From assembly GCA_947179485.1 (NCBI GenBank), contig OX359247.1, forward strand, positions 35,192,801 through 35,256,800: 64,000 nt of DNA. Direction: 5' to 3'. The stretch comes from Allacma fusca (lineage: Eukaryota > Arthropoda > Collembola > Symphypleona > Sminthuridae). The number at the start of each line of letters is the position of its first letter. The first letter of the stretch is position 1. A program made the position numbers and the translations under genes. Below the pieces are notes generated by a model, which saw only the letters and a list, made by a program, of their open reading frames with translations, did not search any database and was not told where the DNA came from. Of this stretch, positions 27,634-57,844 are shown piece by piece.

Positions 27634-30600
27634 ATGAGGGTAGCAGTATTCCTAACGATTGTTGCAATCGCCGCGGTAAGTAAATCACTTAACGATTTGA
27701 GAAAAAAATTACTTAACTAATGCCAAGGAATTCAATTACAGACATGTCAGGGAGCTTCACTGAAGGTTGAGCGGCAGGCAACATCTCAAATACAATCCAT
27801 CATTGACCTTTTCCTGGAACTTCAACTAAGCGTACTACAAAAAATTGATGAAGCCTTACACGCCATTATGAACTTTCGCTTATCACAAACAACACAAACA
27901 CCAACGCAGACAACAAAGCAGATAGACTCGGAACCGACAACAACTTCAATTCCACCCGGTGAAGTTGAAGTAACTACATCCACTGACGTAGCCCCATCCT
28001 CTGGTGACGTTGAGGCAACTACAACCGCTGACGTTGAAGCTACTACCTCCGCTGACGTTGAAGCTATTACCTCCGCTGACGTTGAAGCTACTACCTCCGC
28101 TGACGTTGAAGCTATTACCTCCGCTGACGTTGAAACAACTACCTCCGCTGACGTTGAAGCAACTACATCCGCTGACGTTGAAGCAACTACATCCGCTGGT
28201 GTTGAAGCAAATACCTCTGCTGACGTTGAAGCAACTACATCCGCTGACGTTGAAGCAACAACCTCTGCTGACGTTGAAGCAACTACATCCGCTGACGCTG
28301 AAGCAACAACCTCTGCTGACGTTGAAGCAACTACATCCGCTGACGTTGAAGCAACTACCTCTCCTGACGTTGAAGCAACTACATCCGCTGACGTTGAAGC
28401 AACTACCTCTGCTGACGTTGAAGCAACTACCTCTGCTGACGTTGAAGCAACTACCTCTGCTGACGTTGAAGCAACTACCTCTGCTGACGTTGAAGCAACT
28501 ACCTCTGCTGACGTTGAAGCAACTACCTCTGCTGACGTTGAAGCAACTACCTCTGCTGACGTTGAAGCAACTACCTCCGCTGACGTTGAAGCAACTACCT
28601 CCGCTGACGTTGAAGCAACTACCTCCGCTGACGTCGAAGCAACTACCTCCGCTGACGTTGAAGCAACTACATCCGCTGACGTTAAAGAAACTACATCCGC
28701 TGACGTTGAAGCTACTACCTCCGCTGACGCTGAAGCTACTACCTCCGCTGACGCTGAAGCTACTACCTCCGCTGACGTTGAAGCTACTACCTCCGCTGAC
28801 AATAAAGCTACTACCTCCGCTGACGTTGAAGCAACTACAACCGCTGACGTTGAAGCAACTACCTCCGCTGATGTAGCCACATCTTCCGGCGACGTTGAAG
28901 CAACTACCTCCGCTGATGTAGCCACATCTTCCGGTGACGTTGAAGCAACTGCCTCCGCTGACGTTGAAGCAACTACCTCCGCTGATGAAGCCACATCTTC
29001 CGGTGACGTTGAAGCAACTACATCGGCTGACGTTGAAGCTACTACCTCCGCTGACGCTGAAGCTGCTACCTCCGCTGACGCTGAAGCTACTACCTCCGCC
29101 GACGTTGAAGCTACTACCTCCGCTGACAATGAAGCTACTACCTCCGCTGACGCTGAAGCTACTACCTCAGCTGACGTAGAAGCTACTACCTCCGCTGACG
29201 TTGAAGCTACTACCTCCGCTGACAATGAAGCTACTACCTCCGCTGACGTTGAAGCTACTACCTCCGCTGACAATGAAGCAACTACCTCCGCTGACGTTGA
29301 AGCAACTACAACCGCTGACGTTGAAGCTACTACCTCCGCTGACGTTGAAGCAACTACCTCCGCTGACGTTGAAGCAACTACCTCCGCTGACGTTGAAGCA
29401 ACTACTTCCGCTGACGTTGAAGCAACTACCTCCGCTGACGTTGAAGCAAGTACCTCCGTTGACGTCGAAGCAACTACCTCCGCTGAAGTTGAAGCAACTA
29501 CTTCCGCTGACGTTGAAGCAACTACCTCCGCTGACGTTGAAGCTACAACCTCCGCTGACGTCGAAGCAACTACCTCTGCTCACGTTGAAATAACTACATC
29601 CGCTGACGTTGAAGCAACTACATCCGCTGACGTTGAAGCAACTACCTCCGCTGACAATGAAGCTACTACCTCCGCTGATGTAGCCACATCTTCCGCTGAC
29701 GTTGAAGCAACTACCTCCGCTGATGTAGCCACATCTTCCGGTGACGTTGAAGCAACTTCCTCCGCTGATGTAGCCACATCTTCCGGTGACGTTGAAGCAA
29801 CTACCTCCGCTGATGTAGCCACATCTTCCGCTGACGTTGAAGCAACTACCTCCGCTGATGAAGCCACATCTTCCGGTGACGTTGAAGCAACTACATCGGC
29901 TGACGTTGAAGCTACTACCTCCGCTGACGCTGAAGCTGCTACCTCCGCTGACGTTGAAGCTACTACCTCCGCTGACGTTGAAGCTACTACCTCCGCTGAC
30001 AATGAAGCTACTACCTCCGCTGACGCTGAAGCTACTACCTCAGCTGACGTAGAAGCTACTACCTCTGCTGACGTTGAACCTACTACCTCCGCTGACAATG
30101 AAGCTACTACCTCCGCTGACGTTGAAGCTTCTACCTCCGCTGACAATGAAGCTTCTACCTCCGCTGACAATGAAGCAACTACCTCCGCTGACGTTGAAGC
30201 AACTACAACCGCTGACGTTGAAGCTACTACCTCTGCTGACGTTGAAGCAACTACGTCCGCTGACAATGAAGCCTTTACCTCCGCTGATGTAGCCACATCT
30301 TCCGCTGACGTTGAAGCAACTACCTCCGCTGATGTAGCCACATCTTCCGGTGACGTTGAAGCAACTACCTCCGCTGATGTAGCCACATCTTCCGGTGACG
30401 TTGAAGCAACTTCCTCCGCTGATGTAGCCACATCTTCCGCTGACGTTGAAGCAACTACCTCTGCTGACGTTGAAGCAACTACCTCTGCTGACGTTGCAGC
30501 AACTACCTCCGCTGACGTTGAAGCAACTACCTCCGCTGATGTAGCCACATCTTCCGGTGACGTTGAAGCAACTACCTCCGCTGATGTAGCCACATCTTCC

Positions 30601-33000
30601 GGTGACGTTGAAGCAACTACCTCCGCTGATGTAGCCACATCTTCCGGTGACGTTGAAGCAACTACCTCCGCTGATGTAGCCACATCTTCCGGTGACGTTG
30701 AAGCAACTTCCTCCGCTGATGTAGCCACATCTTCCGCTGACGTTGAAGCAACTACCTCTGCTGACGTTGAAGCAACTACCTCTGCTGACGTTGAAGCAAC
30801 TACCTCCGCTGACGTTGAAGCAACTACCTCCGCTGATGTAGCCACATCTTCCGGTGACGTTGAAGCAACTACCTCCGCTGATGTAGCCCCATCTTCCGGT
30901 GACGTTGAAGCAAATACCTCCGCTGATGTAGCCACATCTTCCGCTGACGTTGAAGCAACTACCTCTGCTGACGTTGAAGCAACTACCTCTGCTGACGTTG
31001 AAGCAATTACCTCTGCTGACGTTGAAGCAACTACCTCCGCTGACGTTGAAGCAACTACCTCCGCTGATGTAGCCACATCTTCCGGTGACGTTGAAGCAAC
31101 TACCTCCGCTGATGTAGCCACATCTTCCGGTGACGTTGAAGCAACTACATCCGCTGACGTTGAAGCAACTACCGCCGCTGACGTTGAAGCAACTACCTCC
31201 GCTGACAATGAAGCTACTACCTCCGCTGACGTTGAAGCAACTACATCCGCTGACAATGAAGCAACTACCGCCGCTGACGTTGAAGCAACATCCTCCGCTG
31301 ACGTTGAAGCAACTACCTCCGCTGACGTATTAACTACCTCTAGTGATGTTGAAGCAACTACATCCGCTGACGTTGAAGCAACTACCGCCGCTGACGTTGA
31401 AGCAACTACCTCCGCTGACAATGAAGCTACTACCTCCGCTGACGTTGAAGCAACTACATCCGCTGACAATGAAGCAACTACCGCCGCTGACGTTGAAGCA
31501 ACATCCTCCGCTGACGTTGAAGCAACTACCTCCGCTGACGTATTAACTACCTCTAGTGATGTTGAAGCAAATACCTCCGCTGACGTTGAAGCAACAACCT
31601 CCGCTAATGTAGCAACATCCTCGGGTGACCTTGAAGCAACTACCTCCGCTGATGTAGCCACATCTTCCGCTGACGTTGAAGCAACCACTTCCGCTGATGT
31701 AGCCACATCTTCCGGTGACGTTGAAGCAACTACCTCCTCTGATTTAGCAACATCTTCCGTTGACGTTGATGCAACTACCTCCGCTGACGTTGATGCATCT
31801 ACCTCCGCTGACGTTGATGCAACTACCTCCGCTGATGTTGCAACATCCTCTGGTGACGTTGAAGCAACTACCTCCGCTAACGTAGCCACATCTCCCGGTG
31901 ACATCGAAGCATCTACCTCTGCTGATTTAGCAACATCTTCCGTTGACGTCGAGTCAACTACTTCCTTTGAAACATCTGCCGCGTCTGATTCGACTAGCGA
32001 GGTGTCAGTTGAATCAACCACATCGAGTGGAAACGAGGTATCTACGTCTGAAATTGTTACTGATATTACGAGCACAACTGCTGTAGAAACTTCAACTATT
32101 GTTGAAAGTACTACACCATCAGTAACTACCGAACCTGATACTGAAGGGACAACAGAATCTTCAACAACTACAGTTCGGACAAGTCAAGTTACAAGCTCTA
32201 AACCAAGCAAGTCTACTACGTCTAGACTACCATCATCGACTACACCTAGGGCAACAACGTTAGCAGTAAAGCCTACCACAGCTAAGCCAACCACAGCTAA
32301 GCCTACCACAGCTAAGCCAACCACAGTTAAGCCAACCACAGCTAAGCCAACCACAGCTAAGCCAACCACAGCTAAGCCTACCACAGTTAAGCCAACCACA
32401 GCTAAGCCAACCACAGCTAAGCCAACCACAGCTAAGCCAACCACAGCTAAGCCTACCACAGCTAAGTCTACCACAGCTGAGCCTACGACAACTACTACTT
32501 CAACAACAACTACTACTACAACAACACCGACTACTTCTACCACGACTCCAAAGCCTAGTCCCTTGCAAGCATATCGGAATCAAATTCGTATTGAATTTGC
32601 AAAAATGTTAAATCTTGTTAATCAGTTGTTGAAAGAATTGGCTCGAATTTTGGAGTTTGTGGAAAGAAGCGGAAACAGATATGCCCGCGAACTAGTTCTG
32701 AGAGCAAAAACGCGAGTTGATTCTATGCTGCCTTTAGTAACTCTAGGTGCTGTGCGATCTCCCTTGGAAATGCAGCTAACTGTAAAACAAGTAGAACTTC
32801 AATTTGCAGGTGTAAAAGTTGTACTTGCAAAAGTGAACGAATCAGCTCGTCCCGAGTTGAAGTCTTTAATTGAACCAGCTGCAACCACTTCAGATGCTGG
32901 CATGAAGCAGTGTCAGAATACTTCGGAAATTATCAACAAAGCCAGCAAGTCACCATTCAGCTCTCTGCTCAGCAACTTCTTGGGAAGCATGTTGGGTTAG
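27634..33000 (+). CDS. Secreted Thr/Ser/acidic repeat protein 1 (family unknown)
   Basis: Exon 1 is 27634-27675 ([14 protein letters not shown], a signal-peptide core). A 66-base GT-AG intron follows. Exon 2 is 27742-33000, for a total of 1766 residues. After the signal comes [13 protein letters not shown] and a predicted amphipathic helix ([20 protein letters not shown]). Residues from about 95 to 1410 are a mucin-like array of the 8-residue unit TTSADVEA, with interspersed 15-residue variants of the type [16 protein letters not shown] Thr/Ser-rich spacer follows, then about 14 KPTTA pentads and a Thr/Pro run. The last 145 residues are a charged, probably helical domain ([20 protein letters not shown] through the end GSMLG) shared with the other two genes. 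Dense Thr/Ser suggests O-glycosylation. A secreted mucin, coat, silk-like or adhesive role is inference only. I do not recognise the family. Confidence 0.88.
27985..31930 (+). repeat. 24-base coding tandem array in gene 1
   Basis: About 150 copies of a 24-base unit encoding TTSADVEA, interleaved with longer units carrying ATSSGDVEA. Higher-order blocks recur: the segments near 31,135-31,345 and 31,350-31,560 are almost identical 213-base copies. Synonymous variants (TCC/TCT, ACC/ACA) occur in local runs, which suggests expansion by unequal exchange. The complementary strand also stays open over kilobases, purely as a consequence of the unit. Confidence 0.95.
32268..32490 (+). repeat. 15-base coding repeat (KPTTA)n in gene 1
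   Basis: About 14 copies of a 15-base unit encoding AKPTT, with Val replacing Ala in two. It lies between the main array and the Thr-run hinge before the C-terminal domain. This is a classic extended, probably glycosylated stalk. Confidence 0.95.
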
Positions 33001-33066
33001 ACATCGATTATCATAGCACATAACAGATAAATACCATAATTCTATTGATCATGAATTAATATCCTT

Positions 33067-33072
33067 ATTAAA
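33067..33072 (+). terminator. Candidate poly(A) signal ATTAAA of gene 1
   Basis: The common variant hexamer lies 67 bases past the TAG stop at 33,000. The chemoreceptor on the opposite strand ends about 175 bases further on, so the two genes converge tail to tail. Confidence 0.4.
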
Positions 33073-33167
33073 AACATTGGAAAGTATTACTGATGGAAAA
33101 ATCAAATAACTAGAGAATTAAAGAGTTACAAGCATCGTGATAGAGATGTCCATACAGAATATAATTA

Positions 33168-33173
33168 TTTATT
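33168..33173 (-). terminator. Candidate poly(A) signal of the chemoreceptor gene
   Basis: AATAAA on the minus strand, about 73 bases beyond the stop codon at 33,246. Confidence 0.4.
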
Positions 33174-33245
33174 CAAATAACTTGCTACAACAAATGACGT
33201 GCTGATGAATCATTCATTTCAAACACATTGTGGGAAAAATATATT

Positions 33246-34645
33246 TTAATCTGTTGCAATTAGCAAGCGAATAGTATTAAAAACTATAAATTTTAATATT
33301 TGAGGAAAAAAGATTTTCTGAATTCCCAGCAGTGACATAGCTTTGCATGATTTAAGGTATTTCCTGGTAATGTCATCCTGACAAGTTCTGCTATTCAAAC
33401 TTGGTGCAAATAATAATTTTTGGCCTCTCTCAAATAATTTAGGTTGGTCTCCAATCCGAGAATAGATGCTGTGGGCAAAAATGATTGTAATGAACAAAGA
33501 AATAGGCAAATTGATGTAAGCTCTGGAATCCATGTTGGAGTAATGGCGAATACTACCATATGAATGCACAATAGAAATAATGGGACAATATGCTCTAACA
33601 ACAGTAATGATTGGGGCAAAGAAAGACTGATAGTGTATAGACAAAAGTTGTGCTTGCCGGTAGGTTCGGATCTTGTTGGTGATGGTCGAATTTCTAAAAT
33701 CATGAATAGTTAATAACAGTATATTCTTCTCAATAAGTATTGCTTCCAGGAGAACTCAATGCAATAATTCTGAAGTAACAATTCTTCACAATATAATTAA
33801 AATTTTGTAATTCCTTCATCTGATCGCTTACCTCTTCTTAGTCAGCACCACATCCAATGACACATAATAAACTATTAAAATAATGATGAAAAAGACCACA
33901 ACGAATTGAATCAGTGACACTTGTAAAGTGAAGTAAAAATGAACCCAGAAGATACCGGTAGTCTTCAAATTCGGTGGCAATGCTGAATACCAAAACTGCG
34001 ATTTGTTCGGCTGGACGATGCTAACCAAAACAAGCTGCATAATCCGAAGTAAAAATGCAAGGACGAGAACTTTTACAGTGGCAGAATCTCGTACATTTTT
34101 TTCTACACAAACAATTACCAAACAAAATTAAATATTTTATATTATGGCACCCAAATGCATACGGAGTATTGTAAGTATTACAAAGTCTTACTCCTAGCAG
34201 CTATTTTTAAAGATTCGTTTAAAAACTCCATAATGTCATCCACATTTACAAGAATCGTCAGGCTAAACAAAAGCGCCATTGTTTTGGGACCAATGAGAGA
34301 GAACAGGATGACGATTTCCTCCAACTTAATGCTTCCATCATCCCAGTGGTAGTAGCGCGTTCCAAGGTAACAAAGTCGATAAATAACATAGCAAATGTCA
34401 ATAAATATGAAACATAGAGCAATCAAATACTGAATTCTCCTCCAGGAAGGCAGGTGACATGCTGTAAATGTTGTTGTGGTGCCATTCCACTGAAATGGAA
34501 CTATGTTTAACATGCAAACATATTTTATTGCGAAACAACTAAAAGGCATGAACTTGCGGTTTGATTTTTTCTTCGTGGTGTTTTTCTTCGAATGCTTACA
34601 GATCTTGAGGGTTTTCCGTAAATTAGTTTCTGTCGGATTCTCCAT
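33246..34645 (-). CDS. Seven-transmembrane chemoreceptor-like protein (gustatory-receptor type), 3 exons
   Basis: Exons 34645-34192, 34102-33832 and 33693-33246 join in phase to give 390 residues, the usual length of insect-type gustatory and odorant receptors. Seven hydrophobic segments are visible: YLIALCFIFIDICYVIY, LFSLIGPKTMALLFSL, VLVLAFLLRIMQLVLV, LIQFVVVFFIIILIVYY, FFAPIITVVRAYCPIISI, LPISLFITIIFAHSIY, and a C-terminal LKFIVFNTIRLLIA. A basic N-terminal tail (KKNTTKKKSNRK) would be cytoplasmic in the inverted topology of this superfamily. The classic TYhhhhhQF C-terminal motif is not present, so the assignment rests on length, topology, intron number and the conserved-looking RKYLKSCKAMSLLGIQ segment before the last helix. 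Another multi-pass membrane protein is possible. Both splice junctions complete sensible codons (Lys and Arg). Confidence 0.75.
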
Positions 34646-37380: not shown

Positions 37381-37385
37381 CTCTG

Positions 37386-37910: not shown

Positions 37911-38280
37911 CACGAATAATTTCGTACGATAACAATGTAGAGTACATTAATTACTGTATTAATTTATATGTGAATCGATTGAGTCTTGTTTTATCGTGAT
38001 ATCTTATGCAAGTTGCTGGAATCAATAACTGAACTGTGTTCTATATATGTATATCTCGTGCATGAGTAATCAAAATTTTATTATTTTAAAATCCCTGCAG
38101 CTAAATGCCATGTACATGACTTCAGGCGCTGTAGTCGAGTATTAGATTTTTTACCGAAAAACAGCTGGAAGCTATGATTGCATTTCAGGTATTAAGAAAC
38201 TAAAATCCATGTTGTAGTAATGGTGTATGCTAAAACGAAACAATTTAATTATTAATTACTAACAAGGTGTAACTGACATG

Positions 38281-38312
38281 AATGTACATACATACATACA
38301 TACATACATATA
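38281..38312. repeat. (CATA)n microsatellite
   Basis: A tetranucleotide run of about 30 bases at the upstream edge of the segmental duplication. Confidence 0.85.
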
Positions 38313-39321: not shown

Positions 39322-41902
39322 ATGAGAGCAGTTGTACTTCTCACGATTGTCGCCCTCGCAGCGGTAAGAACATACAATTAATCTGCATATAAGTACAGTT
39401 AATTCATATATTACAAAACTTATTATCTCATGTAAAATTTAATAATTACAGACATGTCAAGGTGCTTCACTAAAAGTAGAGCGCCAGGCAGGGTCCCCCA
39501 TCCAATCGCTTATAAACATCTTGCTGAACCTACAAGACAACGTCCTTAGGCAAATCGTTGAAGCCATACAAGCAATCCTAAAATTCCGAGAGTCACAACC
39601 TACATCAACAACTCTACCTTCACCTACCACGGATTCGCAGAGCGCGGATACAGAAGTACCTGAGGAAGCAACTGAATCTGCTACTAACGCAGCAACTGAA
39701 GCCGCTACTGACGCAGCAACTGAAGCCGCTACTGACGCAGCAACTGAAGCCGCTACTGACGCAGCAACTGAAGCCGCTACTGACGCAGCAACTGAAGCCG
39801 CTACTGACGCAGCAACTGAAGCCGCTACTGAGGCAGCAACTGAAGCCGCTACTGACGCAGCAACTGAAGCAGCTACTGAGGCAGCAACTGAAGCCGCTAC
39901 TGACGCAGCAACTGAAGCCGCTACTGACGCAGCAACTGAATCTGCTACTGACGCAGCAACTGAATCTGCAACTGACGCAGCAACTGAATCTGCAACTGAC
40001 GCAGCAACTGAATCTGCAACTGACGCAGCAACTGAATCTGCTACTGACGCAGCAACTGAAGCAGCAACTGACGCAGCAACTGAAGCAGCAACTGACGCAG
40101 CAACTGAAGCCGTTACTGACGCAGCCACTGACGCAGCAACTGAGGCAGCAACTGAAGCCGCTACTGACGCAGCAACTGAAGCCGCTACTGACGCAGCAAC
40201 TGAATCTGCTACTGACGCAGCAACTGAATCTGCTACTGACGCAGCAACTGAATCTGCTACTGACGCAGCAACTGAATCTGCTACTGACGCAGCAACTGAA
40301 TCTGCAACTGACGCAGCAACTGAAGCAGCTACTGAGGCAGCAACTGAAGCCGCTACTGACGCAGCAACTGAAGCCGCTACTGACGCAGCAACTGAAGCCG
40401 CTACTGACGCAGCAACTGAAGCAGCTACTGAGGCAGCAACTGAAGCCGCTACTGACGCAGCAACTGAAGCAGCTACTGAGGCAGCAACTGAAGCCGCTAC
40501 TAACGCAGCAACTGAAGCCGCTACTAACGCAGCAACTGAAGCCGCTACTGACGCAGCAACTGAAGCCGCTACTGACGCAGCAACTGAAGCAGCTACTGAG
40601 GCAGCAACTGAAGCCGCTACTGACGCAGCAACTGAAGCAGCTACTGAGGCAGCAACTGAAGCCGCTACTAACGCAGCAACTGAAGCCGCTACTGACGCAG
40701 CAACTGAAGCAGCTACTGAGGCAGCAACTGAAGCCGCTACTGACGCAGCAACTGAAGCCGCTACTGACGCAGCAACTGAAGCCGCTACTGACGCAGCAAC
40801 TGAATCTGCTACTGACGCAGCAACTGAATCTGCTACTGACGCAGCAACTGAATCTGCTACTGACGCAGCAACTGAATCTGCTACTGACGCAGCAACTGAA
40901 TCTGCAACTGACGCAGCAACTGAATCTGCTACTGACGCAGCAACTGAAGCAGCAACTGACGCAGCAACTGACGCAGCTACTGAAGCAGCAACTGACGCAG
41001 CAACTGAAGCCGTTACTGACGCAGCAACTGAAGCAGCAACTGACGCAGCAACTGACGCAGCTACTGAAGCAGCAACTGACGCAGCAACTGAAGCAGCAAC
41101 TGACGCAGCAACTGAAGCCGTTACTGACGCAGCAACTGAAGCCGTTACTGACGCAGCAACTGAAGCCGTTACTGACGCAGCCACTGACGCAGCAACTGAA
41201 GCCGTTACTGACGCAGCAACTGAAGCCGTTACTGACGCAGCCACTGACGCAGCAACTGAATCTGCTACTGACGCAGCAACTGAATCTGCTACTGATGCAG
41301 CAACAGAATCCGCTACTGACGCAGCCACTGACGCATCTACTGAAGCCGCTACTGAAGCAGCAACTGAAGCCGCTACTGAAGCAGCAACTGAAGCCGCTAC
41401 TGAAGCAGCAACTGAAGCCGCTACTGAATCAACCACTTCTGTGACGACAACAGCTAAACCCAATCCAACTCAAGAATATCAAGATCAAATGCGACTTTGC
41501 TTTGGCAAATTCCGAGACCTCACAAGCCAGTTGCTGCAGCAATTGAATAAGATCTCAGCATTTGTCGAGAAATCAAGAAATACCTACGCTGGATTTATGA
41601 TTTCAGGTGCAATTAAACGAGTCACAGCTCTGCAACCTATGTGCAGCATTTCTAAAGTTAGACCACCTTTGGAAATGCTTGTAACTGTAAAGGAAGCACA
41701 AACCCAGTTTTCCGGTATCGGAGCCATTATTGGAAAAGTTGCAGAAACTGCACGTCCCGAGCTTAAAAGTTTACTCGAACCTGCCCTAACCATGGTTAAA
41801 GCAGGAGTAGCCAATGCTCAAAAAGCAACCGAAACTATTAACACAGCTAGCAAGTCTCCAATCAATTTGTTGGGCTCCATCTTTGGTTCCATCTTTGGTT
41901 AG
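39322..41902 (+). CDS. Secreted Ala/Thr/acidic repeat protein 2 (family unknown)
   Basis: Exon 1 is 39322-39363 (MRAVVLLTIVALAA, signal-peptide core). The intron is 88 bases. Exon 2 is 39452-41902, for a total of 830 residues. The mature N terminus [14 protein letters not shown] and the helix SLINILLNLQDNVLRQIVEA match gene 1. From about residue 87 to 675 the protein is built of tetrads, Ala-Ala-Thr-(Asp/Glu), paired into the 8-residue unit TEAATDAA, with some blocks of TESATDAA. A short SVTTTAKPNPTQ hinge leads to a C-terminal domain of about 145 residues (EYQDQMRLCFGKFRDLTSQL through GSIFGSIFG). It contains two Cys, predicted helices and a hydrophobic tail. Half the array residues are Ala and a quarter Thr, so it could be helical or heavily O-glycosylated. 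Function is unknown. Structural, mucin-like or ice-active roles are speculation. Confidence 0.88.
39670..41430 (+). repeat. 24-base coding tandem array in gene 2
   Basis: About 73 copies of a 24-base unit encoding TEAATDAA or TESATDAA, made of two 12-base half-units. Ser-containing units cluster in three runs (about 39,940-40,050, 40,200-40,320 and 40,800-40,940), showing block duplications inside the array. Confidence 0.95.
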
Positions 41903-44441: not shown

Positions 44442-47400
44442 TTAATCAGATTCCGAGAACTCCGAATCACTGTCTTCACTTTCCGTTGATTCCCAGTCAG
44501 AAACGTCAAAAGTTATATCACATTCATCGCACAAGATAGGATTCTTGAGGAGTTTAATATCCTTCTTTTGACATTCTTCGTCACAGTAAGTCGTCATACA
44601 GTAACCACAGAAGATTTCAGCATCCTCTGCCCAACAAAATTTGCAAATGTTTACTCGTTCACCAAACTCGATTGTGTTGATATCATCTACCCGAATAGCG
44701 TACATTTCTTTGGCAAAGGCCAATCTATAATATGGATTTTTGATGCTAAGCTTTGACCCGATCCACAACTTCGTCTTGGCTTCTGGAAAATCTTCAATCG
44801 TAATGTGGATGCAATCATGGTGTTTGTCTTTTACAACGGAATACCATTTGCCAGCAACATTCCAGGACGTCTCCGCAATCTGTGCATGAAGTACTCTTCC
44901 TTCATGAATCTTGTCCCCGTGAGGATTCATTTCTCGTATTGTAATTTCCTTCAGACCATTTAAATTATATTGTTTGTGTTGTTGTTGTTGCATGGGTAAA
45001 ACGGAAAGCCGGGAGAACCAACCAGGTTGACTGAAAAGCCTATTGCTGGAAAATATCCTATCATAGAATTCTTTGTAACCCTTTCTATGTTGCGTCGTTA
45101 TTTCAAACCGGATTGGGCTAGTTGCTTGACTGTAACGTCTAGTGTCTTCATTCGGATCAGATATTAAATGCTCAGTGTTTCCGATACCCCCCAAAATTTC
45201 ATTAATACGTTTTTCCACTACCTCTTTAACATAGGATACATACGGCAGAAAATACGATATCAAATTTATTTCTGCTTTCAGACCATCCTCATAAATCTTC
45301 TCACCTTCAGCATTATTGTTCTTGTGGAATATTTCCATAAACGCCATAATAAAGTACGCCTCTGGAATCATTCTGTCATCCCGGTGAGCTTTTTGAATGA
45401 AGAGCTTGCAAGTCTCTAAGACATCGTCAACGGATACCTTGATTCCTACGAGATGTTTCATAACCGCCATCTTTCCATAAAGTAGAGTTGGGTCGAAGGG
45501 AAATTTTTCAAGTGCACTCACGAAGGTCTCGAAGGACTCAACATATCTCCCAGTGAATGCAAGTGTAAATCCGAGAGCTTCTATAAAAAATTTCTCTTCC
45601 GGGTAATGTCTAATGCAATCTTCCAAGTAAGGAAATAAGCGAGGGGCATCGTTTCGTGAGGCCAAAAGTTGTACAGAGCATATACGAATTCTGAGATCCA
45701 AATAGTTTGGTGTGACCATGTTGTCTATGGGTATCATGCCGCACAATATTTCAAGCTGTTCTTGCATTGCTTCCGTTAAGTCTGGAACAACTTCGCTCTT
45801 ACGAATACAATCCGCAAAGAATCCGATGGCACAGTAAGGATAATTTATCATCATTGCACAACCTTGTTGGAAAAGGTCCATTGCATTCAGCAGTAGATTG
45901 GCATAAGGAAGTCCTTGTCTTGATCGCTCCAATATCTCCATTCTGTGCTCCCAAATAGTTCCTCGGTAAAAATTATCTTCATCAATCCGCATTCTAGTTG
46001 CAATTTGTGGATATAATACGATTTTAGTCTCATTGGCAGTTTCATGCTTGGCTAGTAGCTCAGTCAAAACTTGGCGTACTGACTTGTTCCCAACATAAAT
46101 ATGATATTGCTCCAAAATCTGAGCAATCTTAATCCTACATTGCTCTACTCTAACAGCTTCCTTGAACTTCTTTTCCTCCAGAATTGAATGCACGTTATCA
46201 TATTTAATTGCCTGTTTATACCAGACCAAAGAAAGATCAACGCTGCCTTCCTGGACGTACATCCAAGCCAAATGGTCCATTGCATACGGTATTTCTGCAA
46301 AAAAAAAACAATGAATACATGACGAGATGGTATTCGTACATAGTAATCAAAGAAAAAAATTAACACTGTCCAGGCCACACTTTAATTAATTATTAGTGGA
46401 TAGTTACGTAATAGGTAGATAAGTATAGTGAGAAGCACTGGGTTAGCAAAAACTCACGAACCGAGTATGTCAATTTGGTTTTTTTCGCGAACGTTAGCCA
46501 ACCGGGTTACATACATGTGTAAAAAACTCAAATTGGCAATCTTTCTCTAGCCAAAGGCTAATCTTTCCTCCGCAATTCCAGTTATGTTATGACTGAGGCT
46601 CTATTAAGTAGTAGATTATGTGTCGCGTCCGCAAAATCGACCTCGTTATATTTCGAAGCTTGAAACTAATTGGCGTACCTATTTTTAAACCATTCGTGAA
46701 CCTTTTTTATCTTGAATGATTATGGTAAATAAAATTTTACCTCTAATAGCAGCCAGTGTGAAATACTGCTTTGCTCGTTCCTCATCTTCACAACAGCCGA
46801 TCCCGTCCAAGTAGAATATACCTAAATTATGTGAAGCTCCACCGTGACCTTTCTCGGAAGCTTGTAAATACAGCTCTAAGGCCTTACAAAAATTCTGTGG
46901 TTTTCCAACTCCATCTTCGTACAAACGACCAAGGCAGAATATTCCATGAGCCACCCCCGCATTGGCCGACTTTTCAATCCAATGAACTCCTTTTTCCACA
47001 TCAGGCTCAACTCCTTTCTCATCAGGAAATAAATAGATGATTCCAAGGTACACGTAGGCCTCAATTACTCCTTGCTCCGCCAAGTCCAGATAAATTTTAA
47101 ATGCAGCCTTATGATCCAAAGGCAGGTCTTCCCCTATCTGATGAAGTCGAGCTTTAACCAGGGAAACGTTTGCTCTTCTAGTGGGATCTCCAGATCGTAA
47201 GCCTTCATTCATTGCATCGATTAGGAATTTTCCTGATGGCCCAAATCCCCGTTGTTTTCTAAATTTCTCCGCTTTTTCGTTCAGACTTGAAGGAAGTCCT
47301 AAGGGATTACTGTAGTCTTTACTCTTCTCATGACTTAGTCCAAGCTTGCAAACATTTTTGAACAGTTTGGCTTCCTTCGCATTAGGATTTCGCTCCAGAG

Positions 47401-48259
47401 CTCTATCAAACCAATTAATTGCTTGTTGGTATTCTTTTTTGAACTGATGCATCTGACCGATGAGATGATACCCCACCCACCAAGTTGGATCACTTGAAAT
47501 CAAGTTTTGGGCATCTTTGTACGCTGAGTCAATATTAAGTGTTATTTCGTCCTCAGGAAGAGTTTTATTTTTCAAAATGAAGATACGAGCTTGAGAACGG
47601 TTTGACAATAGGAAGGACCTTTCTTTACTCCGTAAACCCGCCAATGCCAAGCCCGTAGTATACATGTGAATAGCTTCCTGAAAGGCTTTTCTTTTCACCA
47701 GACGTTTCCCTTTCTTCCGTAGCTTCCTTCCTGTCCTAGAATTCCTTGGGTTGAACTCCGTCTCCGTTAGTACATGACTGTTTAGATGAATGGTCGATTT
47801 TATGTTCTCGATTTCATCCGATGGCATGCCGAACTCAACAAGCGCCTCCGCTGATAACTTCCAATAGCTTTCAAACAGATCGTGGTTTACGTTTAGGTCA
47901 GCAAAATGCTTGACAGCGTTTCGGACTTCTACTAGTTGCTTCAAAAGCTTGCCTCGGTCTGAATTTGCGAATGCGGGAATAGAGCGCAGCAGGGTATTAC
48001 TGAGTGTGAGGTCAAATTGGGTTAGGTCGCCGTTGTCAACCACCTTCTTCTGGTCCTCATTCTTTAAGCTTCGGTAGAATTTGGAACAATCTTCCTTTAG
48101 AAATAGCTTCACTTCCTCTGACTCATTCTGCCACCTCGTTCCTCTTAACTTCCGAAATTGGTCTTTTATTAAGTTCTGAGCGTACTTGTTTCCGCAGTTG
48201 CTTATAAGTTGCTCCAGCCGGATATACCGATGGAACCCTGGTATATTTACTTGGTTCAT
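44442..48259 (-). CDS. TPR/Sel1-repeat protein with C-terminal MYND-like zinc finger, 2 exons
   Basis: Exon 1 is 48259-46741 and exon 2 is 46294-44442, for a total of 1123 residues. The junction completes Arg-Glu and keeps the frame. Exon 1 starts at the first in-frame ATG (48,259, context AAAAATGAAC). The same frame is open a little further upstream but only with a TTG. Residues about 170-300 carry TPR-like helices (SRTGRKLRKKGKRLVKRKAF; WFDRALERNPNAKEAKLF). Residues about 395-500 carry Sel1-type repeats (GVIEAYVYLGIIYL; GVAHGIFCLGRLYEDGVGKP; GHGGASHNLGIFYLDGIG). More TPR-like helices follow in exon 2. Near the C terminus is a zinc finger, CKFC-x8-CGYC-x4-YCDEECQ then C-x2-C, of MYND type but without the usual His. 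A very acidic Ser tail (ESTESEDSDSEFSESD) ends it. No SET domain is present, so it is not an SMYD methyltransferase. A protein-protein scaffold is likely. Confidence 0.88.
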
Positions 48260-50348
48260 TTTTCTGTGGTAAATCAAATGTTATTAGTGTATCATTCTTG
48301 TATGATATTAGTCTAGATTTCTTTTTTAAGAAAAGATTTCTGATCATGATTATTACATCTAGTACCACTCAAGCAGACCGTCCCATGAGCTTTTATCTAA
48401 GTGTATAGCTTGTTGCAAAATCCAAGTTTTAACATCGATTTCAGACGCGAATGGGGAAAATGGGGCTAATAATATTATACTTTAGAAAATTTGCTTGTTT
48501 CTTTTCAGAGATATTCCATGAACCCCAGCAAATTTTTCATTGCTTATAAACATCTAAATCAGCATCAGCTCCTTATCGTGCTTTAAACAGCTTAAAGGCG
48601 CTCGTTCCGGCGCTAATGATATTCTCAATGTATGGGTAAAGAAATATGTTGTAGTTGTAGTTGATAATTAATTATTACTACTTATAGTTATTACAAGTAT
48701 ACAAAAACATTTCAACCAGAATTTGAACACCTCGTATATATAATTTATTGTAATACAAAATGGCTGCCTTCCCAAACCTATAATCCTACAAATCTAATCT
48801 GGGACAAGACTTTGCTGATTTTATCTTCGAACAGAAACCGCAGTAACCCATACTACAGACAGAAGGTTGGTAGTGGACGTGGACTTACCCATGCAATCAA
48901 TCATTTCCACGAATAATTGCTTTTTAAATATGTTGGAAGCTCCGATCTTGTGGTCACTAGAAATGCCCGAGTAGGTTGTCCGGAATACTTTTCTGGCTAA
49001 TAATTACCTACACCAGATTCGGTTGACGATTGAATCAGTTACTAGAATCAAATATTGTAGAACTGCCAGCTTAAAATTATAAGACATATGTAGCCCAAAT
49101 GCAACGCCCTTTTCTGTTGAGAACCCTACTAATCTTCAAGATCACTTTTTGGGGTCTACCCCAAAGTCAAAAGAATTTTAGAATAGCAATTGGTTTCACA
49201 TGAAACGCAAATTGATGTGTACTATTACTGTGTAGTAAGTATTACTTAAGAGAGCAGCAAATAGCCCATGAGACAACTCACCCATGGTCCACGTCAAGTG
49301 TTTCCTCATAAACTGCATGAAAAATGGGTGGCATTCATCCAGATCCAGAGATATCCAAGCTCGGTTTTTACATGAAGCACAAATTAATTTGTTTTAACAC
49401 CACAGTTCATACATAAGACAACACGAACCATGATTTACATATGTACGTAGTTTTTTTAAAAATACAGGGTAAAATAAACTGCATGACAAATATGTGTGGT
49501 ATTTAATCTGAAAACTATCGCTTCGCTGAATGACAGTAACTCGGTCTTAATTTTTGATGGGCATATTCATACTAAAGAAAACGATATGATTCATGAAGTA
49601 CTATGAGTACCTTTTCTATATAATGCTATGAGGCATGAAATATATATATTATATTGTCCCTCATTAAAATTAAGACTTTTCAGACTCTAAAGTAAAATAA
49701 CTAGTAAGTTAGCTATCTATAAACTGCATCAAAAACTCGGATTCTGAAATTAATGGAACTGTTTATTATTGTTTATCATCTACGAAGAAGAAAAACGTAC
49801 TATTTGTATTTTAAATTCAAAGCAAAATGATTCGGTTGTATATATACGCAGTTTCATTAAATACTAAGAGCAAAATGACCTCTATGCTAATTAAAATAAT
49901 TAAATATGCATATGATAAATACATATGTATGCTATTCGTTGTGGAGGAGCTTAATACAGATCATTTTCCCTGGGATGAAAAATGAATCTACATAGTTCAT
50001 TGTGTCACTGCACCTTGTTGATGTCGATTTTGCCTTTCCTCAAGGGTCAAAATACCTTCAAAATAGGAATCTGTTCTCCACCGCTTGTGGCTTTTATACC
50101 TAAATCCGGATCATGGGCGAAAGCCTACAAGACCTTCAAATGAATAAATAATAATAGTATATAATACCCACTCGCAACAAAGAATCTTTTCATTCACAGG
50201 TGGGGCCAGGAAAGAAACTCTAGGAGGAAGGAATTTAATATCCGTAAATGAAACCTGAAATGAATAGCTTCAAATAAAATACAGTATACATTGAATGAAA
50301 GTTAGTAAAAGAAAATAGAACGGAGTCGATATAGGAAATTTTAGCTAA
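48260..50348. other. Intergenic, no gene recognised
   Basis: It includes the MYND gene promoter. A frame at 48,123-48,368 overlaps the gene out of frame and is a shadow. The rest is AT-rich with no domains or arrays. Confidence 0.5.
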
Positions 50349-50729: not shown

Positions 50730-50861
50730 TAATGAAAACATAAACAGCATTCTACTACTGTATTTTTTATATAATGTTATTTTTATGTGCAAACATGTAA
50801 GTTGAATAAAACTGAACTATGATAAATATGTGTGATGATAAGATTAGTAAAATTATACTTC

Positions 50862-51148
50862 AAGGTCTCATTCTTTTATTACACATATATTATATTTGAG
50901 CAATTTTTGATCCCACTTTGCTCAAAAAATCATCAATTTATTGAAATATTAGACTACAGCCGTTCCAACCCATACCCGTCCGTATTATTTACGTCTGCTT
51001 AAGAATGTAGAAAGCTTTGGGTTGAGCATTACGAAAGATTTAAAAATCGTTATCTTATTAGAACACATCCTCCCTCATACCTGTCTTGAGCAGCATTTCT
51101 GTACATCTCCCTCCCTCCTTTCTGATGACGTAATCAAATAATTATATT
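50862..51148. mobile_element. Decayed relative of element E (62,835-63,309)
   Basis: The left end has TCTCATTCTTTTATTAC, like the end of element E. The right end, read in complement, has TTTGATTACGTCATCAG followed by AAAGGAGGGAGGG, again as in E. The ends have diverged and no target duplication is clear, so this is an older copy. Confidence 0.55.
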
Positions 51149-51809
51149 ACATGGAGTTGAGTAATGACACATTGTTTCCCCCCCCCCACAACATCACAAC
51201 AAGGTAAGTATTCTTAATAACATGCATACTGATTGACATGCATGACATTGTAAAAGTAACGCAAGTCGTGTCTTCTATCTAGTAATTTAGATATTTGTTC
51301 CATTTTTCAACCCATAGGTTGTGTTTCCATAGTTCTAGCTCTATATTGTTCGTCTCGTAGGTTCCTCGTCATCATCTGCCTCCGTTTCTTTTTGGACGTT
51401 TTTAGGTTTTGCATGCCGGTGGTCCCTAGTCAAAGCTCATTGGATTAACCCCTTAGGTCTATCTAAAAGAAAATGTTACACCTTGTAAATGACATAAATA
51501 CAACTATATCTATAGTACCTGAGTAATTCGAATTAATTTAATTTTTGTATGGTACAAAACAATCAAACGAGCTGGAGGTGGAGATCTTCATATTTGTAGT
51601 AGTTTCAAAGTTCGAAAAATGATGCGTACTATACAACATATTATGGTAAATTATTGAATATCTTAGGTATGTGCTAGAATGACGAATCTGCACTAGGTAG
51701 GTATTACTAATACTATATCTACTAATTAAATTTAATACTAATATGCATATTTCTCGTCGTACATTCAAATACATCAAGTTTTCACAAGTGAAGCTACATA
51801 TAAATACTG
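51149..51809. other. Intergenic, no gene recognised
   Basis: It contains a run of C at 51,180-51,187 and otherwise AT-rich DNA. It ends where homology to the gene 2 upstream region begins. Confidence 0.5.
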
Positions 51810-52469
51810 TATGTATGTAAACTGTGACATGAATACTTTCTCCGAAAGGTAAGGTAAATTTCATATTTCTGGGGAGGAAATTCAAAAAGTTCCATTTCTA
51901 AACTTGTTTTAATGTTAGGGTAGATTTAACCTTGAATAAATACTGTAGTGAGCAGTCACACAGATTCTGACAGTATGTGAAAGTGACATTGGAATTTAAA
52001 GAGGAAACCACAAAATATTTTTCTCCATCCCCAGCCCAAAGCAGTGCTTGGCACGTGTAGGGGTATCTCGGGTAAATGGGTAAGGGTATGGGTGCTACCC
52101 GGGTACTGATTTAGTGTACCCTAACAATTTCGGATACTACCGGAGAATACTCTGATCAGCTTAAATTTTCGGGTACGGAGGGGGTAAAGGGTACGGATAC
52201 AAGGATTTGAAAATGGATGTATACATGCCGGGTGCTGGTATATGTATCTGTATGTGCAAAAATTTTGTATGCATGTAAATATGTACTGGGTGCCATAAAA
52301 CGTTTCGACCGTCAACCTATAAAAAGGCGAAATGGTAACAAATATTTGAGTTCCCTATATTTTAGCAGTTTCTTCCAGATTTTTCAAAATTAGTTCCTTC
52401 CTCCTAGATCAAAGCCTCTCGAAACAGCGGTCAAGACAGTAAAGCAGACTTTGGTGTACTTTTTTGCTT

Positions 52470-53471
52470 AGGGAGTATGCACATATTACGCTTCACTTTA
52501 CCTCCATTTTTGGACCCTACCCCCCCTTACCGTCATCCCGACGTCATTATTCCTTCACCCCCTGCTCTGTATTATCAAAACCACAGACAAATTAAAACAG
52601 GTTTAATACGTAGCATTTTTATTAATATTATTAGTAAAAAATGAACATTAAGCGTCAGTTTAGCAATCTAGATTCATAACAAATACGCTCTGAATCCAAT
52701 CAGCCACATTTCCAATAACTTCCATCGGTGAGTCCGATGAATCTTCCACTACATTTGCTGTGGACAACTGTATTCGATAACTTTGTACAGCAGATTCGAT
52801 GTTTTTCGAGATGCTTTCTAACGAACTTCAATGAATAGCAGCTTCTTTGTGAGATTCATATGCAATTTTGCTAACAAAATAGTGATTGCAAGTATGGCAG
52901 GTTTGGATTACAAGGTTGTCTTGAATGCTGGGGCTGTAGTAGATATATGGGATAATTTCCAGTTTTCTGTAAATTGCATTTAAGATGACACGAAGCGACA
53001 AACCGCCTAAGTAGGTAGTTCAACCTTCCGGGTTACAAATACGAACTCCAGAAACATCTGCTTAAAGAACACCAGAGCCAGGAGAAACTTCGATATTAAA
53101 CCTTTGTCCAAATTTCTTCGTCAAGGACGACACTAACTGGGATCATGACAACGAATTATTTGCAAAACACAGTGATGTTGACGGACTGACGGAAGTGATT
53201 TTGTAGTCAATCCTCGGAATGCGCTCATGGCTGTCATCGAGATTCGGTCTAATGTATGGATGTTTATAAAATGTATCAGTGGTCTTTCAACAATAAAATG
53301 GCAATGAAAATATTGAGTCTAACAAAAATCCCGGTTTATTCCTTACAATATTGTGATAATCGGCAAAACATCATTAGTAAGGTTACCTCCACCCCCTTGG
53401 TATTCACAAAATCATCAGCTTCAAGACCCCCTCCCTCCCCCAAAAATGAAATGTAATATGTGAATGCTCCC
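52470..53471. mobile_element. PIF/Harbinger-like element (element B), nested
   Basis: The ends are GGGAGTATGCACATATTACG and the complement of GGGAGCATTCACATATTACA (17 of 20 match). TTA directly flanks both sides, a 3-bp target duplication. It lies wholly inside the hAT-like element, so it inserted later. The interior carries a decayed minus-strand reading frame, described separately. Confidence 0.82.
52660..53150 (-). pseudogene. Decayed coding sequence with a C2-H2-like motif inside element B
   Basis: One minus-strand frame is readable over about 160 codons with only a handful of stops. Segments include LTKKFGQRFNIEVSPGSG, ADVSGVRICNPEG, LGGLSLRVILNAIYRKLEII, then TCHTCNHYFVSKIAYESHKE and, after a stop, SLESISKNIESAVQSYRIQL. 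The CHTC...ESHKE...IH spacing could be a C2H2 or ZAD-like zinc-binding site. This looks like the remains of a cargo or element-encoded protein. I cannot name it. Confidence 0.4.
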
Positions 53472-55069
53472 TTACAGGTGTTGCTTTACAGAATTGTTTT
53501 GAACTAATAATTGTAAGTGAAATTTGGAAAGCTTTTGTACTCATCTGTCTTCCCATTTCCACGGTAAATAACCTAGGTTTGGTAGCTCCCTAAAAGGTCG
53601 TGATATTTTACAAATATTGTAAAGGGTATTTTACTTTTGAAATTTTAATGAAAAATTAAACCTCAAAAATATTCTTTCAACCAAAATAAATAGATGGATG
53701 TTTAGAAATTAATATAGAAAATTGGGAAATGCAATTTGTTTTACCACTGCTTCTTCTATGGGCTCATGCTCATGATGCAGATGTACTACCACTTTTAAAT
53801 ATTTTTACAATCCTTTGCATGTTTTGGCTTTCATTCAAATATCCAAGTATCCTCGGTGGAGGCGGAAACCGGATTCAATGAATTTTTCATTTCAAGCAAA
53901 AAGGTTATGTGATTTGTTGTTTAAAAGTAAATGAGCTTCACAGCAACCTTTACGTTTTATAGTCAACAATTAAGTTTTTTTCCTTTCGGTTTTGGCAACC
54001 ATCAAAAGTTTTTGCTCAAAGCGTAACAATCCTAGTGCATGTGGGGCATAATAAAAGATGTGGTACTATGTAGGAATTCAATTTGCTTTAAAGATTTTCA
54101 CCTAGTCCGTTCTGCTTTTAATTTGTAATAAAAACCTGTGGGAAATTTTTAATGGAACTGCAAGTAGCTAATTTCGTTTATAATCGAAACCGCACCCAGT
54201 TTTTTCTACTAGTCATTAAAAATTTTAAATACCGCTCGAGAATACTCGAAATAAGAAACTAAGGTGTGTTACATAATTATATTTAACGTACAACAGCATT
54301 TTAAAAAATCCGTGCACTGCACTGATTTGGGCAAACTTTGTTTGCATGTGCAGGAAATTGGAACTTATATTTAAAGATTTTTAGTAGGGTAGGCAAATGG
54401 AGTTTGATTGTTATCTGTAAAGGACGTATGTCCATACGTCAATCCGTTGGAAAGATATAGCAAATGCAAGATTTTTTGATAATTGTATCCAGAAAATAAT
54501 TTTCAGAGGTCAAACGGTTGACCCTGGGTCAGGGAAAATATCAAAAGGCACATCTAGAAAGTATGTCCGAATTTTTGGGACAAGTCCCATGTCCGTATGT
54601 CATTCCGTTGTTGAGTTGTGCGACTCACAAGATTTTGTAGATGGACGGACGGACGGAAATCACTCGTCTATAAGAAAGTTTCACTTTCTAAAAACTGAAA
54701 GAAGTACCCCGGTAAGAATACGGGTACGAAACGAAGATACCAGAGTATGGGAACAATATTTGAGTATTTCTCGGGTACCGGGACAGTCCGGGTACAGATA
54801 CATGGCTTCATTCATGGCACAGATTACGCTGCAGGTACGCCTACGAAAAATGTGTACACATGCCCTAAGGTAAGGTATATGGGTGTGGGTATAGATACCA
54901 AATACAGCAATACCCGCACTTCGGGTTCGCGTACAGATTTCGCGTATCCATGCCGAGCTCTGGCCTATACAAGTGAAAACTGGAAAATTCTTTTCGATTC
55001 TCATAATAGCTTATCGAATTAATAAATTCGTTCCCTTCCTCTCACACATGGTGACGAATGCTAGTAAGT

Positions 55070-55540
55070 ACTATTTTGTATAAAGTCGCTTTTGTTGTCT
55101 AAAGGTGCAAAAACCAGTACTAAAATGATCCGATTAACAGTTAAAAAGATATAATTAAATTATGGTACATTACCGCATGACGTGGACAATAACCAGGATT
55201 CTTCGAAACTCATGAGTATGCATTGTTCGTTACTTGTTTGCTTTCATTAAATATTTGCACTCCAAAGAACCAATATCCAGAGCACAAAAAAAACACGCAA
55301 TAAGCGGATTTGCAATCATTTTTAAAGTATGGAAACAGGTGCATCGCTGGATAGAGTATCAAATCCTTTTGTTAAAATTATACCAATCCATAAGTACAGC
55401 TACGTCACAACGGTAAAACATTTATTTAGACGCCAGATTGGTTAAACATACAAAATTTTTTAATTGTTTCAATTATCTATACATTATACCAACCAAAGAG
55501 TGACCCTTCAAGGCAAATGTCAACGTAATTACACAAAGCA
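55070..55540. repeat. Upstream block shared with 37,386-37,910 and 38,690-39,150
   Basis: The third copy of the block that precedes genes 2 and 3. Landmarks are GCATCGCTGGATAGAGTATC and TTTATTTAGACGCCAGATT, in the same order and spacing as in the other copies. Confidence 0.75.
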
Positions 55541-55654
55541 AGACAGTCTTTGTATGAAATGGCAATGTTTCAACAGCTGAAAACACCTTCTGCGTTTCAA
55601 AGTTAGAGCAATATTCAGGATAAGAGCACATAGCTACATATTGAATCTATCTAA

Positions 55655-55662
55655 TATATAAA
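55655..55662 (+). promoter_or_regulatory. TATA box of repeat-protein gene 3
   Basis: TATATAAA, 73 bases before the ATG at 55,728. The hAT-like insertion ends about 690 bases upstream, so the core promoter is intact. Confidence 0.75.
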
Positions 55663-55727
55663 ACGATAGGAGAGATTTCAAAATATTACATCTTCAGAAA
55701 CGATCCAGTTACTTCAACCTGAGCAAA

Positions 55728-57844
55728 ATGAGAGCAGTTGTACTTCTCACGATTGTCGCCCTCGCAGCGGTAAGAACATACAATAAATTTATGCGTTCAA
55801 GTACAGATCAATAAAATATTACGATCAATTTATAATCTCATGTTAAATTTAATAATTACAGACATGTCAAGGTGCTTCACTAAAAGTAGAGCGCCAGGCA
55901 GGGTCCCCCATCCAATCGCTTATAAACATCTTGCTGAACCTACAAGACAACGTCCTTAGGCAAATCGTTGAAGCCATACAAGCAATCCTAAAATTCCGCG
56001 AGTCACAACCTACATCAACAACTCTACCTTCACCTACCACGGATTCGCAAAGCGCGGATACAGAAGTACCTGAGGAAGCAACTGAATCTGCAACTGAAGT
56101 CTCGACTGAATCCGATACTGATGCCACTACTGACGCAGCTACGGAATCTGCTACTGACGCAGCAACAGAATCCGCTACTGACGCAGCAACTGACGCAGCA
56201 ACAGAATCCGCTACTGACGCAGCAACTGACGCAGCAACAGAATCCGCTACTGACATAGCTACAGACGCAGCAACAGAATCCGCCACTGACGCAGCAACAG
56301 AATCCGCTACTGACGCAGCAACAGAATCCGCCACTGACGCAGCAACAGAATCCGCCACTGACGCAGCAACAGAATCCGCTACTGACGCAGCAACAGAATC
56401 CGCCACTGACGCAGCAACAGAATCCGCTACTGACGAAGCAACAGAATCCGCTACTGAAGCAGCAACAGAATCCGCTACTGACGCAGCAACAGAATCCGCT
56501 ACTGACGCAGCAACTGACGCAGCAACAGAATCCGCTACTCACGCAGCAACTGACGCAGCAACAGAATCCGCTACTGACGCAGCAACAGAATCCGCTACTG
56601 ACGCAGCAACTGACGCAGCAACTGACGCAGCAACTGACGCAGCAACAGAATCCGCTACTGACGCAGCAACTGACGCAGCAACAGAATCCGCTACTGACGC
56701 AGCAACAGAATCCGCTACTGACGCAGCAACAGAATCCGCTACTGACGCAGCAACAGAATCCGCTACTGACGCAGCAACAGAATCCGCTACTGACGCAGCA
56801 ACAGAATCCGCTACTGACGCAGCAACTGACGCAGCAACAGAATCCGCTACTGACGCAGCAACAGAATCCGCTACTGACGCAGCAACTGACGCAGCAACAG
56901 AATCCGCTACTGACGCAGCTACAGACGCAGCAACAGAATCCGCTACTGACGCAGCTACAGACGCAGCAACTGAATCCGCCACTGACGCAGCAACAGAATC
57001 CGCTACTGACGCAGCAACAGAATCCGCCACTGACGCAGCAACAGAATCCGCCACTGACGCAGCAACAGAATCCGCTACTGACGCAGCAACAGAATCCGCT
57101 ACTGATGCGGCAACAAAATCCGCTACTGACGCAGCAACAGAATCCGCCACTGACGCAGCAACTGACGCAGCAACAGAATCCGCTACTGACGCAGCAACAG
57201 AATCCGCCACTGACGCAGCAACTGACGCAGCAACTGAAGCCGCTACTGAAGCAGCAACTGAAGCCGCTACTGAAGCAGCAACTGAAGCCGCTACTGAAGC
57301 CGCTACTGAAGCAGCAACTGAAGCCGCTACTGAAGCAGCAACTGAAGCCGCAACTGAAGCCGCTACTGAATCAACCACTTCTGTGACGACAACAACTAAA
57401 CCCAATCCAGCTCAAGAATATCAAGATCAAATGCGACTTTGCTTTGGCAAATTCCGAGACCTCACAAGCCAGTTGCTGCAGCAATTGAATAAGATCTCAG
57501 CATTTGTCGAGAAATCAAGAAATACCTACGCTGGATTTATGATTTCAGGTGCAATTAAACGAGTCACAGCTCTGCAACCTATGTGCAGCATTTCTAAAGT
57601 TAGACCACCTTTGGAAATGCTTGTGACTGTAAAGGAAGCACAAACCCAGTTTTCCGGTATCGGAGCCATTATTGGAAAAGTTGCAGAAACTGCACGTCCC
57701 GAGCTTAAAAGTTTACTCGAACCTGCCCTAACCATGGTTAAAGCAGGAGTAGCCAATGCACAAAAAGCAACCGAAACTATTAACACAGCTAGCAAGTCTC
57801 CAATCAATTTGTTGGGCTCCATCTTTGGTTCCATCTTTGGTTAG
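55728..57844 (+). CDS. Secreted Ala/Thr/acidic repeat protein 3 (family unknown)
   Basis: Exon 1 is 55728-55769, identical in protein to gene 2 (MRAVVLLTIVALAA). The intron is 92 bases, with conserved ends and a diverged middle. Exon 2 is 55862-57844, for a total of 674 residues. The array uses mostly TESATDAA with TDAATESA phase slips. It begins with a less regular segment (EVSTESDTDATTDAATESAT) and ends with about 35 TEAA tetrads. The C-terminal domain differs from that of gene 2 only in the hinge (TTTTKPNPAQ instead of TTTAKPNPTQ). Role unknown, as for gene 2. The very high identity to gene 2 outside the array points to recent duplication or gene conversion. Confidence 0.88.
56072..57368 (+). 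repeat. 24-base coding tandem array in gene 3
   Basis: About 54 copies of the 24-base unit encoding TESATDAA. Half-unit (12-base) insertions shift the register repeatedly without changing the reading frame. The last part, about 57,230-57,365, is pure TEAA tetrads, as at the end of the gene 2 array. Confidence 0.95.

Follow-up and report, generated by a model that had tools for sequence, protein, structure and literature searches.

What kind of protein is encoded by three neighbouring genes of the globular springtail Allacma fusca in which tandem repeat arrays of differing sequence are enclosed by conserved ends? The genes lie within a 64,000-base stretch of chromosome 3 (contig C10, positions 35192801-35256800; hereafter the window), which was analysed together with the complete assembly of 392,743,791 bases in 91 contigs. 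An initial annotation, made from the window's sequence alone, had described a family of secreted giant-repeat proteins whose ends might drive assembly or tethering around a spacer array. In the account favoured here, for which the case is evenly balanced, the genes would encode three paralogous structural proteins that are secreted and resemble mucins or glues, with acidic spacers joined to self-associating ends. The evidence on the family consists of this genome's sequence and of predicted structures, from which the glycosylation, assembly and tissue site of its products are all inferred.

Gene models and conserved ends

The three genes share one architecture, in which a signal exon and an intron precede a large exon encoding, in order, a 13-residue motif, an N-terminal helix, a repeat array and a C-terminal domain. 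All are on the forward strand: gene 1 spans 27634-33000 (exons 27634-27675 and 27742-33000; product of 1766 residues), gene 2 spans 39322-41902 (exons 39322-39363 and 39452-41902; 830 residues) and gene 3 spans 55728-57844 (exons 55728-55769 and 55862-57844; 674 residues). Exon 1, which encodes a signal-peptide-like segment, has 42 bases (14 codons) in each gene, and that of gene 3 is identical to that of gene 2. The GT-AG introns, of phase 0 after codon 14, comprise 66 bases in gene 1 (27676-27741), 88 in gene 2 (39364-39451) and 92 in gene 3 (55770-55861), and exon 2 is in each case a single open exon running to the stop. A TATA box is located 73-75 bases ahead of the ATG in all three genes (about 75 bases in gene 1) and a poly(A)-like signal 66-134 bases past the stop (ATTAAA in gene 1, AATAAA in genes 2 and 3). 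These models confirm the common architecture first annotated, with its 42-base signal exon, short intron and large exon. The start of the 13-residue motif had also been taken as the mature N terminus; the signal peptide more likely extends to TCQG, and KVER, a short way beyond it, would fit a proprotein-convertase site.

In the N-terminal part, 34 of the first 53 exon-2 residues (27742-27900, 39452-39610 and 55862-56020 in genes 1, 2 and 3) are identical across the three genes, among them all 13 residues of the motif. The N-terminal helix is strongly amphipathic, with a hydrophobic moment of 0.56 in gene 2 and 0.49 in gene 1 (values that 0 and 2 of 2000 shuffles attained, respectively), whereas idealised helices of the arrays are not. 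The C-terminal domain was expected to have about 145 residues and has 142 in gene 1 (32572-33000, including the stop) and 141 in gene 2 (41477-41902) and gene 3 (57419-57844), the latter two being identical in protein sequence and 46% identical to that of gene 1. Modelling of the three aligned domains with AlphaFold2 placed helices at residues 2-33, 36-56, 64-91 and 94-124, followed by a poorly predicted tail, and gave a mean predicted local distance difference test (pLDDT) score of 89.7 and a predicted template modelling (pTM) score of 0.81; the domain is thus predicted to be a four-helix bundle. Together with an N-terminal helix at residues 16-47 in the model of the full gene 3 product, in which a long low-confidence helix spans the array, these predictions agree with the helical ends originally proposed. 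The C-terminal domains carry net charges of +7, +8 and +8 and the N-terminal parts of -1, +1 and +1 in genes 1, 2 and 3. Between genes 1 and 2, the ratio of non-synonymous to synonymous divergence (dN/dS) is approximately 0.16 for the signal and N-terminal part and 0.32 for the C-terminal domain, with dS near 1.5. All three proteins end in a short hydrophobic tail that follows a stretch of small residues; the GSIFGSIFG tail of genes 2 and 3 was made by a perfect 12-base tandem duplication (41876-41900 and 57818-57842).

The ends resemble none of the families searched: for the C-terminal domain, neither Pfam, NCBIfam and PHROGs nor the sequences of the PDB yielded a credible match. A Foldseek search of the PDB with its model gave no match at E <= 0.001 and 603 at E <= 10, the best 50 of which are generic four-helix bundles. 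A number of weaker similarities were set aside as chance or low complexity. These include Fibrinogen_BP (1.2e-20) and Extensin_1 (1.5e-6), each on one of the three exon-2 products and neither on that of gene 3; DsbD_TM (0.0023, below its own cut-off) on the signal and N-terminal part of gene 1; TMP_N (0.11-0.17) on the C-terminal domain of gene 1; and phrog_2026 (0.07) and phrog_4094 (0.23), both of unknown function, on two of the three C-terminal domains each. Matches to PDB sequences at E 1.1-1.8 for the C-terminal domain and from 0.18 for the N-terminal part, the latter mostly design constructs, were treated likewise.

Repeat arrays

Tandem Repeats Finder (TRF) reports 24-base arrays of 167.4, 73.7 and 49.2 copies in genes 1, 2 and 3, respectively, with a further overlapping row of 5.8 copies at the start of the gene 3 array. 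The TTSADVEA-type array of gene 1 occupies 27956-31883 (approximately 167 units) and is followed by a mucin-like linker of about 15 KPTTA units and a Thr-rich run (32269-32540), whilst the arrays of gene 2 (39660-41428, approximately 74 units) and gene 3 (56127-57369) are built of T[DE][AS]A tetrads. The repeat of eight residues first described holds for gene 1, where self-identity is 0.61 at lag 8 and a 15-residue variant is also present. The period of eight is likewise found in genes 2 and 3 (self-identity 0.87 and 0.79), although the unit there is in turn a pair of similar tetrads (self-identity of 0.68 and 0.59 for lag 4). Net charge of the arrays with their linkers amounts to -299, -148 and -112, and Ser and Thr make up 39, 29 and 35% of residues, in genes 1, 2 and 3. 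When the 24-base consensus units of the two array types are compared for signs of common descent, the best rotation gives 14 of 24 matches, a value reached by 2.4% of shuffles.

Each codon was also compared with the codon 8 further on, a comparison in which a single mutation may count twice. Single-base differences at codon positions 1, 2 and 3 number 4, 1 and 77 in gene 2, 4, 4 and 112 in gene 3 and 117, 103 and 219 in gene 1. Replacements account for 34 of the 82 differences in gene 2 and 39 of the 120 in gene 3, which we read as mostly Asp/Glu swaps; in two shifted frames the differences are mostly replacements. Because the changes in genes 2 and 3 fall nearly all at third codon positions, the arrays look translated and constrained at the protein level, clearly so in these two genes and less clearly in gene 1. 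Open reading frames (ORFs) that cross the arrays in antisense or in a shifted frame were attributed to the repeat itself and regarded as artefacts. The region 25736-26890, immediately upstream of gene 1, contains CCCGTCCCG-type minisatellites together with a 27-base array that is almost perfect.

Family extent, duplication and gene conversion

In the genome, queries with the C-terminal domain of either lineage and with the N-terminal part returned three matches each, all in the cluster, with E values between lineages of 9e-32 to 1e-31 for the C-terminal domain and 3e-13 for the N-terminal part. A degenerate QGASLKVE pattern occurs at three places in 393 Mb, and its reversed control at none. 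These E values and the motif counts exclude chance resemblance, and with the TRF period of 24 in all three genes they uphold the earlier description of conserved ends around differing arrays that keep a 24-base unit. The ends of genes 2 and 3 are near-identical, so that only two lineages, not three, contribute independent evidence. Exon-by-exon searches of the genome, in which the best candidates were scored and distant members could be missed, revealed no fourth copy. Among the 40 matches listed for a TTSADVEA query, 39 lie over gene 1 (on both strands) and one, weak, elsewhere. A tetrad query for other repeat ORFs, with 150 of 4478 candidates scored, gave 114 listed matches, and the family ends are absent from the ORFs of seven stretches taken from them. 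The best tetrad match outside the cluster (L042:2050-3288, minus strand) is a separate, secreted-looking PTEA-repeat ORF without the family ends. Scans of viral and prokaryote contigs revealed no relatives of the C-terminal domain.

Gene 2 is followed on the minus strand by two neighbour genes (44442-48277), one weakly TPR-like (44442-46280) and the other a Sel1-repeat gene that also matches TPR and HEPN_DZIP3 weakly (46685-48277). The pair has second copies after gene 3, a short way outside the window (L014:2225-4027 and L014:4225-5850), and in both cases the pair, apparently intronless, is on the opposite strand to the repeat gene. The neighbour copies are 60.8% (TPR-like) and 78.3% (Sel1) identical, with dS of 0.57 and 0.34. 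Between genes 2 and 3, identity is 100% in exon 1, 99.1% in the N-terminal part and 99.2% in the linker and C-terminal domain, compared with 84.1% in the introns, 82.6% from 150 to 700 bases upstream and 89.3% in the last 150 bases before the ATG; past the stop it is 91.9% over the first 150 bases and 43.8% over the next 150. Silent differences affect only 4 of 183 sites in the coding ends, against 14 of 88 bases in the intron (Fisher p 6e-5), 93 of 535 upstream (6e-9) and, for the two Sel1 genes, approximately 97 of 350 silent sites (2e-15). Since the coding ends are near-identical while the intron, the upstream region and the co-duplicated neighbours have diverged, gene conversion probably keeps the coding ends alike and explains the pattern most simply. 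A less likely cause is selection acting on silent sites, because such sites are near saturation between genes 1 and 2 (proportion of differing sites, pS, 0.65). Two considerations count against conversion, namely that it must skip an 84%-identical intron between two converted exons and that the neighbours may evolve fast or stem from another duplication event.

Several further observations concern the surroundings and the wider assembly. According to passages of PMC10427803, chromosome 3 of A. fusca carries a heterozygous inversion from about 5 to 45 Mb, inside which the window (35.19-35.26 Mb) lies. Kelch-repeat exons are present on the minus strand at 19966-21373, and a tRNA scan and an Rfam scan at the gathering threshold were empty. 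Contig C91, of 14,936 bases, carries COX1, and four COX1 copies are located outside this mitochondrial contig, at L004 and L006 (both on C12), L005 (C5) and L008 (C8). These match the whole or nearly the whole profile, have only TGA stops under the standard code and resemble mitochondrial DNA recently inserted into the nuclear genome. At L017:2252-8715, an ORF with an integrase core (rve, 1.2e-10) lies close to long ORFs for which there is no credible match, perhaps a virus-like transposon.

Affinities, function and competing explanations

The closest parallel in gene plan is provided by the salivary glue genes of Drosophila. According to passages of PMC6352337 and PMC10835880, a short intron within the stretch for the signal peptide separates two coding exons in Sgs1, Sgs3, Sgs7, Sgs8 and Eig71Ee; the repeat-bearing genes have a large Thr-rich repeat exon, whose repeats change fast in sequence and number; Sgs1, Sgs3 and Eig71Ee have a conserved C terminus of 50 to 135 residues; and there are local clusters with gene conversion in some. 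The springtail genes share with these descriptions the two-exon plan, the Thr-rich repeats, the conserved C terminus, the local clustering and the signs of conversion, and the initial statement that no named family has this design therefore needs revision. They differ in the intron, which is of phase 0 after codon 14 in all three and of phase 1 at residue 10 in the Sgs genes so described, in a Cys-poor C-terminal domain predicted to be helical and in acidic, Ala-rich arrays with little Pro. Neither the IRxC[L/V]C motif, given in passages of PMC10835880 for the Sgs C-terminal domain, nor the PCxxxxK motif of Drosophila glue matches any of the three springtail proteins. With neither of the C-terminal motifs that define the family and with an intron of another phase, the best reading is that these proteins would work like Sgs glue proteins yet are not members of that family. 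Spidroins (PMC9237525, PMC10578117), whose repeats are flanked by conserved terminal domains responsible for assembly, serve as a working model and share this flanked arrangement. They are distinguished by a five-helix N-terminal bundle, where a single helix is predicted here, and the springtail arrays are acidic and Thr-rich. No spidroin N- or C-terminal domain was matched by Pfam in the ends or exon-2 products, and none is among the best 50 of the 603 Foldseek matches.

On the favoured account, the signal peptide would be removed after TCQG, perhaps with a short propeptide after KVER, and the Thr/Ser-rich arrays would be O-glycosylated, forming polyanionic spacers that are extended, vary in length and bind water. 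Molecules would be held together by the amphipathic N-terminal helix and the basic C-terminal domain, through helix contacts and attraction of the C-terminal domain to the acidic arrays, and the product would be a gel, glue or fibre from a gland secretion. Array sequence would drift while charge and Thr spacing were kept, and gene conversion would homogenise genes 2 and 3 at their coding ends. The proposal of assembling ends around a spacer thus fits the charge pattern and the amphipathic helix, and is still conjectural as a mechanism. Several findings weigh against it. Pro is scarce (0.6-2% of arrays and linkers), unlike in typical Pro/Thr/Ser-rich (PTS) domains of mucins; third-position bias is weaker in the gene 1 array (219 of 439 differences), where replacements number 222 of 439. 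The prediction for the full gene 3 product is poor (pLDDT 59.9, pTM 0.30), so that array shape and contact between the ends are not established by it. The proteins have only one or two Cys after residue 16, at positions not common to gene 1 and genes 2 and 3, which rules out a conserved disulfide network.

Secreted mucins have a signal peptide and Ser/Thr-rich, O-glycosylated tandem repeats, the gel-forming ones with Cys-rich assembly domains, and peritrophins and peritrophic mucins carry chitin-binding CBM14 domains. The springtail proteins resemble mucins in their signal peptide, their Ser/Thr-rich tandem repeats and the KPTTA linker of gene 1, and differ in arrays very poor in Pro and in lacking Cys-rich end domains; Pfam scans of the exon-2 products matched no Cys-rich assembly domain. 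The acidic, Ser/Thr-rich arrays and the linker would suit a lubricating or protective mucin of the gut or body surface that undergoes no specific assembly and whose ends serve folding and secretion only. This explanation is rather unlikely: Pfam scans of the ends and exon-2 products matched neither CBM14 nor another chitin-binding domain, and an identical 13-residue motif and a constrained C-terminal domain, retained while silent sites between lineages became near-saturated, suggest a specific role. The proteins might instead form a membrane-tethered brush, their C-terminal tail being a glycosylphosphatidylinositol (GPI)-anchor signal and the product a cell coat rather than a released secretion. 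Tails that are hydrophobic after a small-residue stretch in all three proteins (mean Kyte-Doolittle 1.57 in genes 2 and 3, 1.09 in gene 1) would suit such a signal, yet the h-region of the signal is far more hydrophobic (2.92) and the tails include Ser and Asn, and we consider an anchor distinctly improbable.

A role in cold protection, equivalent to that of the glycine-rich polyproline type II (PPII) antifreeze proteins of other springtail orders, would account for repetitive, secreted sequence rich in Ala and Thr. Passages of PMC10235112 describe the collembolan proteins as having glycine-rich GXX repeats and report that they were not found in eight Symphypleona genomes, perhaps, according to the authors, through difficulty of detection. 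The family arrays, with 25, 0 and 0 glycines in arrays and linkers of genes 1, 2 and 3, lack any GXX pattern, a TEAATDAA helix in idealised form presents no face (moment 0.04, a value that 1571 of 2000 shuffles attained), and the strong acidic charge and the different repeat of gene 1 argue against a common ice face, making this role very unlikely. That the arrays are merely expanded minisatellites, open by chance and without function, is scarcely credible; some other array frames are likewise free of stops, as a repeat of 24 bases would lead one to expect, whereas third-position bias in the correct frame, conserved ends and promoter-like and splice signals speak against it.

Within the glue- or mucin-like account, a narrower and unlikely version would make the family a springtail-specific charge-block secretion, in which acidic bottlebrush spacers, a basic four-helix bundle and an amphipathic helix coacervate into glue or thread, independently of insect glues and silks, for example in spermatophore stalks, an egg cover or a sticky ventral tube. 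The ventral tube is regarded as a sticky organ in passages of PMC6351550; its link with the family is a guess. No expression data for A. fusca appear in the literature passages searched (PMC9630974), and the titles and abstract openings searched, which are not a full survey, describe no structural proteins of springtail secretion. As far as the family searches and this partial literature search extend, the family appears undescribed. With its compact set of three genes, constrained ends, exchanged arrays and sign of conversion, it offers concrete candidates for the proteins of springtail secretion and, if confirmed, would represent an independent example of the gene plan that Drosophila glue genes show.

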